A stretch of 44,008 nt of DNA from contig JAFDGZ010000042.1 in NCBI GenBank assembly GCA_019309045.1, positions 1 to 44,008 of the forward strand, given 5' to 3'. This DNA comes from Deltaproteobacteria bacterium. Its GTDB lineage: Bacteria; Desulfobacterota; Syntrophobacteria; BM002. The position numbers were made by a program, and so were the translations under genes. Shown here piece after piece: positions 29,010 through 35,269 of this stretch. How positions within the stretch are numbered: position 1 is the stretch's first letter; each line of letters begins with the position of its first letter. The notes beneath the pieces were generated by a model. That model did not search any database and was not told where the DNA came from. It was given only the letters and a program-made list of their open reading frames with translations.

Positions 29010-29038
29010 TTTGTAGACCGTACCCACTGAAATGTCAA
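29010..29038 (-). promoter_or_regulatory. Candidate sigma70 promoter of the Hdr locus
   Basis: On the minus strand TTGACA (29038-29033) and TACAAA (29015-29010) are 17 bases apart, about 145 bases upstream of the fused hdrA start. The rest of the 359-base divergent region (28866-29224) is AT-rich; no convincing plus-strand promoter was found in it. Confidence 0.55.
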
Positions 29039-29224: not shown

Positions 29225-31144
29225 ATGGGCAAACCCACTTATGCTGAACTGGAACGCAGGGTGGAGGAGCTGGAGCGGATTCTCGCCGAAACCGCTGCCA
29301 GGCGAGATTTCCAGTTCGCCACCAGAGATCTCATCTACTTCCGCGGCTACCGGGACTGGTCCGTGGAGTTCTTCGACCGCAAGATAGAAGAGCTCACCGG
29401 CTGGCCCCTGGAAGATTTTCTCGACAGGAAGGTGAAGTGGCTGCATATTGTCCAGCCAGAATACCGGGAGCAGGCGCAGGATGCCGTGAAAAGAGCGCTC
29501 AAATCAGACAAGTATTACGAAGCAAGGTATCCAATTGTCACTCGCAGCGGCCAGACCAGATGGGTGGCCATTCGCGGCTACATTGTCTGTGACGACCAGG
29601 GTGACTTCCTGGCGGTTCAGGGAGTCTTGAATGACATCACCAGGGAAAAGCAGACGGAGCGGGCCCTGGAGTCCGAGACCGAGCTCTTCACCCGGGTAGC
29701 CAATGTTCTCGAGGACGGCATTTACATCGTCAGAGAGGACTACCGCATTCTGTTCATGAACGAGGCGCTCATCGAGCTGGTGGGGGACCATGTGGGCGAA
29801 GTCTGCCACCAGGCACTGTTCGGGCGCCAGACGCCATGCCCCTGGACGGTGATGTCAACCATTCAGGAGGAGCAGTGCGGCGTGCAGGAGTACCATTTGC
29901 CTGGGGTGGAGCGGATTTTTCAGGTGAGAAGCTTTCCTATAAGGATGCGCGACGGCACCATAGGCAAAGTGGGCCGCATGAAAGAAGTGACGCATACGAG
30001 AAGGCTGCAGAACGAGGTCAAAGAGTTTGCCGTGCGGCAGCAGGCCCTGGAGGATGCGGCCAACAAGGCTGAGCTGGGCATCTGCCTGCTGCAGGACCAC
30101 CTGGGGGTGGAGGCCCGCTTTCGTTTCGTGAATGAGGCATTCTGCAACATTACCGGCTACAGTCCTGAAGAGCTGCTGAACATGGGGTTTGCGGAGCTGT
30201 TCCAGGGGAAGATGCGGCACGAGGCCCTGGAGCGCTATCGCCGCCGGCAGGCCGGGGAGACCCTGAACCAGGTGTACGAGTTCGAACTCCGGCGTAAGGA
30301 CGGCTCTGTTGTCCCTGTCATCTACAGCGCAGCCCTGTCCTTGTGTGAGGGCCGCATGGCGACCATAGGTTTTATGCGGGATATTACCGAAAGACGCACT
30401 GTGCAGCAGATGCTGCTGCAGTCGCAGCGTCTTGCTTCCATTGGCAGGCTGGCAGCAGAGATTGCCCACGAGATCAACAACCCGCTCACCAGTGCGCTTA
30501 CTTTCAGTAAATTGATTCGCAAGATAATGGAGCAGGAGCCCTTTCCAAGTGAACGGCTGGCTGAGCTGCGCCAGTACATTTCCCACCTGGATGCAGAGAC
30601 CAGCCGCTGTGCTGATATAGCCAAGGGTCTGCTCGATTTTGCCCGTCAGGGAAGGATCGAGATCAGAGAAAACGACCTCGGGGTGATCCTCAAGAAGACC
30701 CTGGAGATTATCCGCCACCGGAGCGAGCTCACCGGAATCGAAATAACTACTTCATTTGCAGCCAATCTGCGGCCAATCGTCTGCGACGGAGCTCGACTGC
30801 AGCAGGCCCTGCTCAACATTGTCTGGAATGCCATCGAGGCAATGCCCGATGGGGGTCTTCTCAGCGTTGCTGCCAGCTACGACAAGGGCGAGGGTTTGCT
30901 GGTGGTGGACATAAGCGACACGGGTGTGGGCATCTCCAAGGAAGATCTGCAGCGAATTTTTGAACCATTTCACACCACCAAGAATGAGACCAGCGGCGTG
31001 GGTCTCGGGCTGTCAGTGGCCTATGGCATCATCCAGCAGCACGGTGGGCGGATCTCGGTGGACAGCCAGCTGGGCAAGGGGACTCATTTTCGCATTCAGC
31101 TGCCGCGGCAGCCAGCCGGGAACCTGCATAATGAAGGAGAATAG
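29225..31144 (+). CDS. Cytosolic PAS-domain sensor histidine kinase
   Basis: A 639-residue sensor with no membrane helix. Three PAS-type regions (about 35-140, 155-260, 275-400) precede a HisKA domain with Ile-Ala-His-Glu-Ile-Asn-Asn-Pro-Leu (His415 phosphoacceptor). The HATPase has an N-box Asn-Ala-Ile-Glu-Ala, Asp-Thr-Gly-Val-Gly-Ile and Gly-Val-Gly-Leu-Gly-Leu-Ser. The second PAS has a Cys-rich patch (Cys-His-Gln-Ala...Pro-Cys-Pro-Trp), common in redox-sensing PAS of Desulfobacterota. GAGGGCGG precedes the ATG. It is divergent from the Hdr locus and 63 bases before the cognate NtrC-type regulator. The signal is unknown, plausibly redox. Confidence 0.93.
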   Translation: MGKPTYAELERRVEELERILAETAARRDFQFATRDLIYFRGYRDWSVEFFDRKIEELTGWPLEDFLDRKVKWLHIVQPEYREQAQDAVKRALKSDKYYEARYPIVTRSGQTRWVAIRGYIVCDDQGDFLAVQGVLNDITREKQTERALESETELFTRVANVLEDGIYIVREDYRILFMNEALIELVGDHVGEVCHQALFGRQTPCPWTVMSTIQEEQCGVQEYHLPGVERIFQVRSFPIRMRDGTIGKVGRMKEVTHTRRLQNEVKEFAVRQQALEDAANKAELGICLLQDHLGVEARFRFVNEAFCNITGYSPEELLNMGFAELFQGKMRHEALERYRRRQAGETLNQVYEFELRRKDGSVVPVIYSAALSLCEGRMATIGFMRDITERRTVQQMLLQSQRLASIGRLAAEIAHEINNPLTSALTFSKLIRKIMEQEPFPSERLAELRQYISHLDAETSRCADIAKGLLDFARQGRIEIRENDLGVILKKTLEIIRHRSELTGIEITTSFAANLRPIVCDGARLQQALLNIVWNAIEAMPDGGLLSVAASYDKGEGLLVVDISDTGVGISKEDLQRIFEPFHTTKNETSGVGLGLSVAYGIIQQHGGRISVDSQLGKGTHFRIQLPRQPAGNLHNEGE

Positions 31145-31207: not shown

Positions 31208-32566
31208 ATGAAGGAGAAAGCTCGAGTGTTGATAGTGGACGATGAGCCGATGGTCTGCCTGTCACTGAGCAACTGGCTCCGGGAGGAGAATTATGAAGCC
31301 AGGGCTGTGGAGGACGGGCCAGCCGCTCTCGAGGCTGTAAAACAAGAGAACTGGGACGTGGTTCTCCTGGATCTCAAGATGCCGGGCATGGACGGTGTGG
31401 AGGTGCTGCGGGAAATCAAGAAAATTTCGCCGCAGACCCTGGTCATCATGATGACCGCCTATGCCTCTGTGAGCACTTCAGTGCAGGCCATGAAGGATGG
31501 AGCCTACGACTACATCGTCAAACCTCTGGACGTGGAAGAACTGTCGTTGATGCTCGACAAGATCGTGGCCCATCAACAGGTGGTCACAGAGAACATCCTC
31601 CTGAGAAAGCGTTTGAGTGAGCAGTATGAATTCGGCGACATCATCGGCAAGAGCGCTGCCATGCAACGAGTTTTCGAGACCATCAGCAGTGTGGCCGACA
31701 CCAACGCCAATGTGCTGATCACCGGGGAGACGGGCACGGGCAAGGAGCTGGTGGCCCGGGCCATCCATACACACAGTTCGCGGCGCTACAGTCCCTTTGT
31801 GGCGGTCAGCTGCAGTGCTCTGCCGGACACTCTTCTGGAAAGCGAGCTTTTTGGCTACGAGAAGGGGGCCTTCACAGGGGCGGAGCGCACCAAAAAGGGG
31901 CGCTTCGAACTGGCCTCTTCAGGGACTCTGTTTCTGGATGAGATTGGGGATATTTCAATAAAAACGCAGGTAAAACTCCTCCGCGTGCTGCAAGAGAAGA
32001 GCTTTCGGCGGCTCGGAGGAACCGACCTGGTAGAAGTGGACGTGCGCCTCATTGCCGCCACCAACAGTGATCTCGCTGCCGAGGTAAAAAAAGGCACCTT
32101 TCGCAGCGACCTCTACTACCGTTTGAACGTGGTCAGCATCCACCTGCCGCCGCTGCGGGAGCGCAAAGAGGACATCGCCCTGCTGGCCGCCCACTTCATG
32201 AACAAATACAACGTGGAGGTGGGCAAGAGATTCGACCGCATCGAGCCCAGAGCCCTGGAGTTGATGATGGACTACGACTGGCCCGGCAATGTGAGGGAGC
32301 TGGAAAACGTCATAGAACGTGCGGTTGTCATTGACGAGGGGCCCGAGGTGAAAGTGGAGCACCTTCCCTTTTGCGTCATGGAGCAGCCCCTGCCCGATGG
32401 ACCGCAAACTCTAGAAGAGGTGGAAAAGGCCCACATTCAGAAAATGCTGGAGCGCCAGAACTGGAACATATCTCAGACAGCACGCCTTCTCAATATAGAC
32501 AGGACTACTCTGCACAAGAAGATCAAGAAGTTCGGCCTGCAGCGTCAGTCCAGCAAACCGCAATGA
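31208..32566 (+). CDS. Sigma54-dependent NtrC-family response regulator
   Basis: A 452-residue regulator: receiver domain (about 5-118, phosphoacceptor Asp55 in Val-Leu-Leu-Asp-Leu-Lys-Met-Pro), AAA+ domain with Walker A Gly-Glu-Thr-Gly-Thr-Gly-Lys-Glu and the sigma54-contact motif Gly-Ala-Phe-Thr-Gly-Ala (220-225), and a C-terminal Fis-type helix-turn-helix (about 405-445). GGGAGAG lies before the ATG. It should activate sigma54 promoters when phosphorylated by the kinase upstream. A good sigma54 promoter with an upstream palindrome occurs only 0.8 kb downstream (33340-33355). The stop overlaps the archaemetzincin start. Confidence 0.96.
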   Translation: MKEKARVLIVDDEPMVCLSLSNWLREENYEARAVEDGPAALEAVKQENWDVVLLDLKMPGMDGVEVLREIKKISPQTLVIMMTAYASVSTSVQAMKDGAYDYIVKPLDVEELSLMLDKIVAHQQVVTENILLRKRLSEQYEFGDIIGKSAAMQRVFETISSVADTNANVLITGETGTGKELVARAIHTHSSRRYSPFVAVSCSALPDTLLESELFGYEKGAFTGAERTKKGRFELASSGTLFLDEIGDISIKTQVKLLRVLQEKSFRRLGGTDLVEVDVRLIAATNSDLAAEVKKGTFRSDLYYRLNVVSIHLPPLRERKEDIALLAAHFMNKYNVEVGKRFDRIEPRALELMMDYDWPGNVRELENVIERAVVIDEGPEVKVEHLPFCVMEQPLPDGPQTLEEVEKAHIQKMLERQNWNISQTARLLNIDRTTLHKKIKKFGLQRQSSKPQ

Positions 32567-33141
32567 AGCGAAACAGCACGAGAGGGAGAATCATCTCTTT
32601 GGTACCCATGGGAGCGGTGCGTGCTGATTACCTGCGGAGCCTTGCCGAGGCCATGAGAGAACAATTCGGCCTGCCAGTGGAACTGACTGCCAATCAGGGC
32701 AGGCCAGTGTATGCCCTTGACGCCAAGCGAAAACAGTATAATTCTCAGCTCATAATACGCAAGCTGCCTCAGATAGCTCCAGCGTATGCCCTGAAGATTC
32801 TCGGGGTAACCGATATTGACCTCTTCAGCCCCATCTTCTCATATGTCTTTGGTGAGGCGCAGTTCCACGGCAGGTGTGCGGTGGTTTCCACCTTTCGGCT
32901 GCACCCCAACCCCGAGAGCAATCCCCGGCCAGGCTGTCCTCCGCTGCTGGATCGGCTGGAAAAAGAAGCCATCCATGAACTCGGCCACACCTTTGGTCTG
33001 CGACACTGCCCGGACCCGGACTGCGTTATGAGCTATTCTGTGGGCGTAGATTGTGCCGACAGAAAGTTTCCCTATTTCTGCCCTTCTTGCCGCGATCTCC
33101 TGCTGTGGCACCTGGCCACCGACATTTTTCTGGGCGCCTAG
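32563..33141 (+). CDS. Archaemetzincin-family zinc metalloprotease
   Basis: A 192-residue enzyme with the metzincin site His-Glu-Leu-Gly-His-Thr-Phe-Gly-Leu-Arg-His (H138, H142, H148, catalytic E139), a Met-turn Met156, and the second, structural zinc site typical of archaemetzincins (C149, C154, C173, C176 in Cys-Pro-Ser-Cys). Family members are predicted aminopeptidase-like proteases with poorly known substrates; most are archaeal, some bacterial and animal. The ATG overlaps the regulator stop (ATGA), so it is translationally coupled to the two-component system, an unusual context. No signal peptide, hence cytosolic. Confidence 0.93.
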   Translation: MKRNSTRGRIISLVPMGAVRADYLRSLAEAMREQFGLPVELTANQGRPVYALDAKRKQYNSQLIIRKLPQIAPAYALKILGVTDIDLFSPIFSYVFGEAQFHGRCAVVSTFRLHPNPESNPRPGCPPLLDRLEKEAIHELGHTFGLRHCPDPDCVMSYSVGVDCADRKFPYFCPSCRDLLLWHLATDIFLGA

Positions 33142-33157: not shown

Positions 33158-33194
33158 TGTCGAAATATACCACACTATGTGGTATATTTCGACA
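33158..33194. promoter_or_regulatory. Perfect 17-bp inverted repeat, candidate NtrC-type enhancer
   Basis: TGTCGAAATATACCACA is followed by CTA and its exact complement. It lies about 190 bases upstream of the predicted sigma54 start site, where NtrC-type regulators bind. A second TGTGG-N7-CCACA site (33246-33262) lies about 110 bases upstream. No T-tract follows, so it is a poor terminator. Confidence 0.6.
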
Positions 33195-33339
33195 ATATAA
33201 AAATATCATATATTCCCGCTAGTTATCATGACACAGATCTCTGACGTGTGGCGTATTACCACATTCCTGCTGCACCCTTCTTGCAGTCGTGGCAAAACAA
33301 ATTAAATAATATCAGCTAGTTATAGTTGCCTCCTCCATG

Positions 33340-33355
33340 TGGCATGGCCATTGCT
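33340..33355 (+). promoter_or_regulatory. Sigma54 promoter of the GcvH-like gene
   Basis: TGGCAT-GGCCA-TTGCT matches the -24/-12 consensus TGGCAC-N5-TTGCW with one mismatch and exact GG-to-GC spacing. The predicted start is near 33366, 70 bases before the GcvH-like ATG. Confidence 0.78.
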
Positions 33356-33436: not shown

Positions 33437-34366
33437 ATGAAAGAAAAAGGAAAGGCTGCCAGATTCAAGGCAGTGCCCAACGGCGACGGCAAGTGCATCT
33501 GGATGGAGGCGGGGGTCATAGACTTCAAACTTTGCAACAATCATTTCAACTGTCATACCTGTGCCTTCGACAGGGCCATGCGCGAGACTGCCAACAAAAA
33601 CGTGGCCGCTCGCCTGCAGGGGCTGGAGCCTCGGGGCAAGAAGGCTCACATCATACCCTGGCAGGAAACCATGAAAAAACGCACGGGTACGCATCGGAAA
33701 TGCAGGCACACGCTCTCTGGTCGGGCACCTTTTCGACTCTGCCCCTATGACTACGAATGCCACCAGTGCCAGTTCGACCAGATGCTGGAAGACGGCTGGG
33801 AGCTGCAGATCCCCTATTACCTGGAACAGGTTCCCCAGGTGGAGGGCTATGGGCTGCCGGAAGGACATTTTTTCCATCTGGGTCATACCTGGGCACGTAT
33901 CGAGCAGGGCGGGCGTATACGCATCGGACTCGATGATTTCAGCATGAAGGTATTTGGTCCCGTGGATGCACTGGATCTGCCTCTTACCGGTGAAGAATTG
34001 AAATTCAGCGAGGCGGGCCTGGGCTTCAAGAGAGAGGGCAAGATTGCCTCAGTACTGGCGCCTCTTTCCGGAGTTGTCACGGCAGTGAACTACCAGATCA
34101 CCAAGCAGCCTGAAGTGGTCAAGGAAGAGCCTTACAACGACGGCTGGCTGGCAGTTCTGGATCCCACAGAAATGAAGAAAAATTTGAAAGACCTTCTCTT
34201 CGGTCGTGAGAGCACTGAATGGATCAAAGAGGAGCACGTCAAGTTGATTGAACTGGTGAGTGAAGTGGGGGTGACCTACGCTGACGGCGGTCCCATTGAA
34301 GACGTGGTGGGCAGGGTGCCCGACCTTTCCTGGGACACCCTGACCAGAAGTTTTCTGGGAACCTGA
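33437..34366 (+). CDS. GcvH-like lipoyl-carrier-type protein with Cys-rich N-terminus
   Basis: A 309-residue protein. The N-terminal half has two copies of a Cys-x5-Cys-x2-Cys-x-Phe-Asp motif (C33/C39/C42 and C102/C108/C111). The C-terminal half (about 140-290) resembles glycine-cleavage H protein, with Gly-Lys-Ile-Ala-Ser at 201-205, where Lys202 matches the lipoylated lysine, followed by Pro-Leu-Ser-Gly-Val-Val. It is longer than true GcvH (about 130) and no gcvT or gcvP is nearby, so a glycine-cleavage role is unlikely. AGGAG precedes the ATG. It has its own sigma54 promoter and a downstream terminator, so it is a single-gene unit, probably controlled by the adjacent NtrC-type regulator. 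Confidence 0.82.
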   Translation: MKEKGKAARFKAVPNGDGKCIWMEAGVIDFKLCNNHFNCHTCAFDRAMRETANKNVAARLQGLEPRGKKAHIIPWQETMKKRTGTHRKCRHTLSGRAPFRLCPYDYECHQCQFDQMLEDGWELQIPYYLEQVPQVEGYGLPEGHFFHLGHTWARIEQGGRIRIGLDDFSMKVFGPVDALDLPLTGEELKFSEAGLGFKREGKIASVLAPLSGVVTAVNYQITKQPEVVKEEPYNDGWLAVLDPTEMKKNLKDLLFGRESTEWIKEEHVKLIELVSEVGVTYADGGPIEDVVGRVPDLSWDTLTRSFLGT

Positions 34367-34407: not shown

Positions 34408-34444
34408 AGACCCGGCCAGGAGGGATGTGCGGCCGGGTCTTTTC
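34408..34444 (+). terminator. Rho-independent terminator of the GcvH-like gene
   Basis: AGACCCGGCC pairs with GGCCGGGTCT (10 bp) around a 13-base loop and is followed by TTTTC. It also abuts the end of the convergent small zinc-ribbon gene. Confidence 0.85.
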
Positions 34445-34625
34445 ACTTTGCTGTCCTGGCCAACCGGGGCGGTATATAGACCAGCACCCTGGCATCACAC
34501 CGGGAGCAAATGAGTTCTACTTTTTCAAAAGTCCTGCCATCCTCGAGTACATACTGGCGCGCTTTCCTTTTCACTTTCACCACGGTGCGGCAGTGTTCAC
34601 AGTACATGTAGTCCAGGTTGACCAT
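34443..34625 (-). CDS. Small zinc-ribbon protein
   Basis: A 60-residue basic protein with Cys-Glu-His-Cys (9-12) and Cys-Ser-Arg-Cys (40-43), a compact zinc-ribbon pattern, otherwise unrecognised. ATG 34625 is the likely start; GGAG lies about 13 bases upstream, and an internal Met at 34607 is possible. It follows the 84-residue gene by 46 bases on the same strand, so the two may be cotranscribed. It could bind nucleic acid or protein; nothing more can be said. Confidence 0.6.
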   Translation of the reverse strand: MVNLDYMYCEHCRTVVKVKRKARQYVLEDGRTFEKVELICSRCDARVLVYIPPRLARTAK

Positions 34626-34671
34626 AGCAGCTGGAAGCTCCAGACCCCCCACGTCGTAGGGTGAGATACGG

Positions 34672-34926
34672 TCAGCGCAAGGCCCCTTCCCATTCGCCCT
34701 CTTGCCAGTGCTTTGCACCAGAGAGCTCATAGAGCAGCCGGGCGGCCTGCTCATCTCGACCTTCGAAGGCCTGATCGCGGATGTAGCTGTACATTTCCAG
34801 GCTGCATTCGTCTCTGGTGGGGGCAGCGGTGTCTCTTCTCTCGAAGATGCAGAATGAGAGGTAAGATTCAAAATCACTTACAGTGGGTTCACTCTGGCAT
34901 CTTTCGAAAAACGCTTCAAACTCCAT
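34672..34926 (-). CDS. Hypothetical acidic helical protein
   Basis: An 84-residue acidic protein, probably helical, no recognised family. ATG 34926 has a perfect GGAGG six bases upstream, strong support for real translation. It lies upstream of the small zinc-ribbon gene on the same strand. No membrane segment, no signal peptide, three scattered Cys without a clear motif. Confidence 0.65.
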   Translation of the reverse strand: MEFEAFFERCQSEPTVSDFESYLSFCIFERRDTAAPTRDECSLEMYSYIRDQAFEGRDEQAARLLYELSGAKHWQEGEWEGALR

Positions 34927-35020
34927 TGTGGACCTCCAGAAAGACACGTCTGCTCAGCAAGGCTCTTTATTTTAATCATAACAAAAGAAGAAATTATGTC
35001 TATTACTATAAAGACGTCGA

Positions 35021-35110
35021 GCACCCTTCGACAAGCTCAGGACAGGTGGGGCACCCTTCGACAAGCTCAGGGCAGGTTGAGCGTCCTCCGACAGGCTCAG
35101 GACAGATGGG
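35021..35110 (+). repeat. Three 30-bp direct repeats (CCTTCGACAAGCTCAGG type)
   Basis: Three tandem units of 30 bases, the first two nearly identical, the third diverged. A related segment occurs inverted in the core of the composite element at 13743-13886. The whole 478-base gap (34927-35404) holds only repeats and no gene. Confidence 0.85.
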
Positions 35111-35208
35111 GGGTCCTCCGGGATTTGTCCAGAAGTACCTCTAGACCCTCCTCCTTTCTAAACCATGACCTGTCAACGCTTTTCTTGACCAGGGTTTATT
35201 TTACCAGC

Positions 35209-35269
35209 AACCGATAACCGATAACTGATAACCGACAACTGATAACTGATAACTGATAACCGACAACCG
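35209..35269 (+). repeat. GATAACY heptamer array upstream of sucC
   Basis: About eight units of GATAACC/GATAACT/GACAACT. It lies about 135 bases before sucC; no strong promoter was found between them. Confidence 0.85.

Follow-up and report, generated by a model that had tools for sequence, protein, structure and literature searches.

A predicted sigma54-dependent switch with three repeated dyad sites upstream of a GcvH-like gene in a deltaproteobacterium

Introduction

In a 44,008-nucleotide stretch of DNA from a Deltaproteobacteria bacterium (contig JAFDGZ010000042.1 of assembly GCA_019309045.1; hereafter the window), a perfect inverted repeat lies upstream of a gene for a GcvH-like protein, near a gene for an NtrC-type response regulator. 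The arrangement raises the question of whether the regulator acts through the repeat to control the neighboring gene, as the initial annotation had proposed, or whether the repeat has some other origin or another binding partner. The comparisons described here make it very probable that the repeat belongs to a sigma54-dependent switch of the GcvH-like gene, operated through three upstream sites by the adjacent two-component regulator.

Results and Discussion

Genes at the locus

Four genes on the forward strand run in the order histidine kinase (HK), response regulator (RR), metalloprotease (M54), and GcvH-like protein. The PAS-domain histidine kinase (29225–31144), the predicted partner of the RR, is syntenic in 14 of the 18 relatives described below. 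The RR (31208–32566), the predicted activator, belongs to the NtrC family: it has a receiver domain with the phospho-acceptor D55, an AAA+ domain (Sigma54_activat) with the GAFTGA motif, and a Fis-type helix-turn-helix (HTH_8), an architecture that it shares with AtoC/ZraR/NtrC1-like response regulators. D55 and GAFTGA are invariant among 19 orthologs, and the recognition helix, DR[TS]TLHKKI, is nearly so. Among solved structures, the best match by sequence is 4l4u, an entry labelled NtrC-family transcriptional regulator. Unlike AtoC, NtrC, and ZraR themselves, the RR scores below the NCBIfam cut-offs of all three and therefore corresponds to none of them. The archaemetzincin-family (M54) gene (32563–33141), whose product scores above the cut-off of NCBIfam NF033823, overlaps the RR gene at ATGA and lies between it and the control region.

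The predicted target (33437–34366) encodes a protein of 309 residues that matches Pfam GCV_H with an E value of 4.6e-18. Like GcvH and the lipoate-binding protein LbpA, it has a C-terminal GCV_H domain; unlike them, it has an additional Cys-rich N-terminal part, and in the alignment to 1onl a glycine stands opposite the lipoyl lysine, with a lysine one position farther on. Its scores against the NCBIfam GcvH models, 62.9 and 59.9 bits, are far below the cut-offs of 117 and 115.85 and place it outside GcvH proper. The N-terminal part carries the motifs CNNHFNCHTC and CPYDYECHQC.

Farther downstream, a small reverse-strand reading frame (34443–34877) encodes a zinc-ribbon-like CxxC...CxxC protein, with a partial match near the GcvH-like gene at two other loci (L048 and L061). 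The intergenic segment at 35010–35260, before a sucC-like gene, contains tandem-like repeats, CACCCTTCGACAAGCTCAGG units and then AACTGATAACCGAC units.

The control region

Sigma54 promoters are recognized by a GG-N10-GC arrangement at −24/−12, with the consensus TGGCAC-N5-TTGCT. The forward-strand sequence TGGCAT-GGCCA-TTGCT at 33340–33355 has the correct spacing and 10 of the 11 consensus bases; about 80 bp separate it from the ATG at 33437, which is preceded by the ribosome-binding site AAAGGAG. The genome encodes RpoN (PF04552 match, E 2.1e-64), and TGGCAY-N5-TTGCT occurs 46 times on its two strands, versus 3 occurrences of a control pattern.

Upstream of the promoter lie three predicted regulator sites, all given on the forward strand. 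Site A (TGTCGAAATATACCACA, 33158–33174) is 182 bp before the promoter TGG. Site B (TGTGGTATATTTCGACA, 33178–33194), 20 bp from A, is its perfect mirror copy: the arms are complementary at 17 of 17 positions across a gap of 3 nucleotides, and sequence and repeat search alike give a perfect 17+3+17 bp inverted repeat spanning 33158–33194. Each arm is an imperfect palindrome in its own right, so this 37-bp repeat is better described as two tandem 17-bp dyads than as one operator. Site C (TGTGGCGTATTACCACA, 33247–33263), a step of 69 bp from B and 93 bp before the promoter TGG, is a third copy of the same dyad, TGTnG-N7-CnACA. In 100,000 Markov shuffles of the 186-bp stretch before the promoter, three sites with the full 8/8 core arose in none, two in 1, and one in 270. 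Genome-wide, TGTSG-N7-CSACA is found 34 times in 3.9 Mb, versus 13 times for the reversed control pattern. An Rfam search returned no match. The 69-bp step from B to C does not correspond to an integral number of helical turns, a point against the preferred explanation.

The promoter, the perfect 17-bp inverted repeat, the additional TGTGG-N7-CCACA-type site, and the nearby NtrC-type regulator gene had all been named in the initial annotation, and each is present at the position given there. What had been described as a palindromic regulator site is, however, a pair of mirror-image sites within a three-site architecture.

An IHF-like sequence (TATCAGCTAGTTA, 33310–33322, forward strand) with 8 of 9 matches to WATCAA-N4-TTR lies downstream of site C, ahead of the promoter. 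Most relatives have their better IHF-like match between B and C (9/9 in seven of them), and others have it between C and the promoter; the B–C counterpart is degenerate in the window, and this too counts against the preferred explanation. Matches of 9/9 are found in 8 of 19 loci, versus 0.4 expected. Genes of the IHF/HU family are present in the genome, with scores below the IHF-alpha cut-off. IHF may act at this control region.

Conservation of the promoter and sites

GcvH-like orthologs (64–74% identical) were found in 18 other genomes of the comparison set, in addition to a contig-end fragment in G050; the collection of named genomes supplied one relative only, CP070735.1. TGGCA-N7-TGC precedes the GcvH-like gene in every one of the 18. 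A counterpart of site A is located 181–184, 192–194, or 206–208 bp before the promoter in 16 of them, a counterpart of site C at 92–95 or 103–105 bp in 15, and a counterpart of site B at 162–164 or 172–175 bp in about 11. The shift in these distances between lineages is roughly 10 bp, one helical turn. Over the window and the 18 relatives, sites with at least 7 of the 8 core bases number 47, versus 1.4 expected and no more than 5 in any of 300 shuffles; full-core sites number 24, versus 0.05 expected. In an alignment of the 19 promoters, identity to the window is 50–65% in the sites and 72% in the sigma54 box, versus 32–37% in the spacers. Two loci, L063 and L065, retain one recognizable site each, an observation that weighs against the preferred explanation.

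The region thus has the hallmark of an enhancer, repeated dyads upstream of a promoter at conserved spacing, and these alignments mark the promoter and the sites before it as a phylogenetic footprint that accompanies the GcvH-like gene. The footprint does not include the palindrome. The sites recur in orthologous intergenic regions at set distances, but their perfect symmetry is not kept: in relatives, A and the reverse complement of B agree at 7–14 of 17 positions, the same as across genomes. Exact mirroring between A and B is therefore peculiar to this genome and dispensable for function. It probably reflects recent local homogenization, for which quasipalindrome correction by template switching, discussed in PMC7202029, is a candidate mechanism.

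Association with the two-component system

The complete order HK–RR–M54–GcvH is found in 14 of the 18 relatives. Across 98 genomes, RR orthologs (70–76% identity) co-occur with GcvH-like orthologs with one exception, G005, where the GcvH-like gene (L057) is present with its promoter, site A, and site C, and no RR ortholog exceeds 51% identity; this genome is 88% complete. In G051, G054, and G041 the HK–RR–M54 genes are elsewhere in the genome, yet the GcvH-like gene keeps its promoter and between one and three sites; the sites are thus not tied to the M54 3′ end. G054 has two copies of the HK–RR–M54 operon (G054:C16 and G054:C125; L142 and L143), neither of which adjoins the GcvH-like ortholog; one of them is about 20 kb from it on the same contig. 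The conserved footprint and, G005 excepted, the co-occurrence of the RR support the original proposal that the GcvH-like gene and the palindromic site are the target and DNA site of the adjacent two-component system; from them we infer binding by the RR.

The circuit appears to be small. A scan of the 46 strong sigma54 promoters in the genome for full-core sites within 300 bp found them at the GcvH-like promoter only and at none of the other 45, so that no further regulon member was detected among these promoters. This result fits a one-target circuit. The best motif matches elsewhere, where their surroundings were examined, fall within open reading frames. On this sequence evidence the circuit appears to be local, with the GcvH-like gene as its only detected target. 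Autoregulation of the HK operon through the same motif was considered and rejected, as in its upstream region the motif reaches no more than a 7/8 match, at 29012, and a sigma54 site is absent.

Alternative explanations

The sites could form a genuine sigma54 enhancer and yet be bound by a different enhancer-binding protein, such as a paralogous regulator or a one-component activator. TGT-N11-ACA-type sites are common to several Desulfovibrio enhancer-binding proteins (PMC4641369), and a first-look search gave about 100 candidate RR matches in the genome, so another such protein could use the sites; G005, which keeps sites in the absence of an RR ortholog, also fits. The conserved adjacency and near-perfect co-occurrence of the RR with the GcvH-like gene speak for the neighboring regulator instead, as does the lack of full-core sites at any other strong sigma54 promoter, and we consider the involvement of a different protein improbable.

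Much less probable still is a role for the inverted repeat in RNA, as a transcription terminator or mRNA hairpin closing the HK–RR–M54 operon. The repeat begins 16 bp past the M54 stop codon, and its 17-bp stem folds as RNA at −24.4 kcal/mol; but the stem is AT-rich, has no T tract, and is not among the terminator-like matches. In relatives, the complementarity of A and B within a genome is no greater than that with the partner site of other genomes (means of 11.1 and 10.5 of 17), and the sites persist where M54 is not upstream. On the missing T tract, the A/B complementarity, and the sites that lack an upstream M54 gene, this explanation was rejected. Perfect inverted repeats of such length can also be remnants of mobile elements, and scattering of the palindrome as a MITE had been named as one outcome that would overturn the initial proposal. 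The region matches only itself in the genome, and the sites are conserved in position among relatives, so that a MITE, another dispersed repeat, or a chance palindrome is refuted, with hardly any probability left to it.

Proposed mechanism

In the mechanism proposed for the neighboring regulator, sigma54-RNA polymerase would wait in a closed complex at 33340–33355. Once phosphorylated by the adjacent histidine kinase, the RR could bind as dimers to A and B, side by side, and to C, nearer the promoter, and could assemble on these sites into an AAA+ oligomer. DNA looping, probably aided by an IHF/HU-type bend, would bring the RR to the promoter, where remodeling of the closed complex would switch on the GcvH-like gene. 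Binding by the neighboring RR, dependence on phosphorylation, looping, and a role for IHF are predicted from the conserved arrangement and from the domains of the proteins.

Comparison with known sigma54 circuits

The sigma54 regulons of Desulfovibrio vulgaris Hildenborough include local circuits in which the gene for the enhancer-binding protein lies beside its sigma54 promoter (Kazakov et al. 2015, PMC4641369; Rajeev et al. 2011, PMC3333781). In Desulfovibrio, three groups of motifs consist of TGT and ACA half-sites 9, 11, or 12 bp apart, and most regulons comprise one to four operons, usually co-localized (PMC4641369). The present locus resembles these circuits in its TGT-N11-ACA sites and its local regulator gene, and it differs from them in having a GcvH-like target and three sites at conserved spacing; the main texts of PMC4641369 and PMC3333781 make no mention of a GcvH-like or glycine cleavage target. 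The predicted switch would work as the Desulfovibrio TGT/ACA-site circuits do, and its type of mechanism is already known. A literature search found no paper describing the RR, the GcvH-like target, or the module, and none treating archaemetzincin together with glycine cleavage.

Paralogous modules and implications

The same genome contains a paralogous module (L140; G000:C2, about 120780–125190) composed of HK, RR (50%), M54 (38%), and a convergent GcvH-like gene (38%), the last with its own sigma54 promoter, TGGCACTCTTGTTGCT, and an upstream palindrome, TGGCTACAC-CCA-GTGTAGCCA. More distant modules have comparable layouts: in G015 (L166), A and B are identical copies 20 bp apart and C follows 81 bp on, and in G050 (L204) the A–B distance is again 20 bp and C comes 72 bp later. 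A further 40 upstream regions, most of them belonging to GcvH-like paralogs (35–47% identity), have a sigma54 site in the sense orientation in 31 cases and in the antisense orientation in 3, versus 1.9 in shuffles. It is conceivable, though we would not call it probable, that HK, NtrC-type regulator, archaemetzincin, and sigma54-driven GcvH-like protein form an old and repeatedly duplicated module that occurs across the phylum, in which the kinase–regulator pair and the protease may serve to monitor the GcvH-like protein or its cargo, or to process either, as an undescribed regulatory or redox-carrier circuit.

No description of the function of such GcvH-like proteins was found in the literature searched. 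The analysis provides a handle on these proteins, which accompany archaemetzincins and NtrC-type regulators in many related genomes of the former Deltaproteobacteria, and an uncharacterized two-component system gains a concrete, testable predicted DNA site and target.
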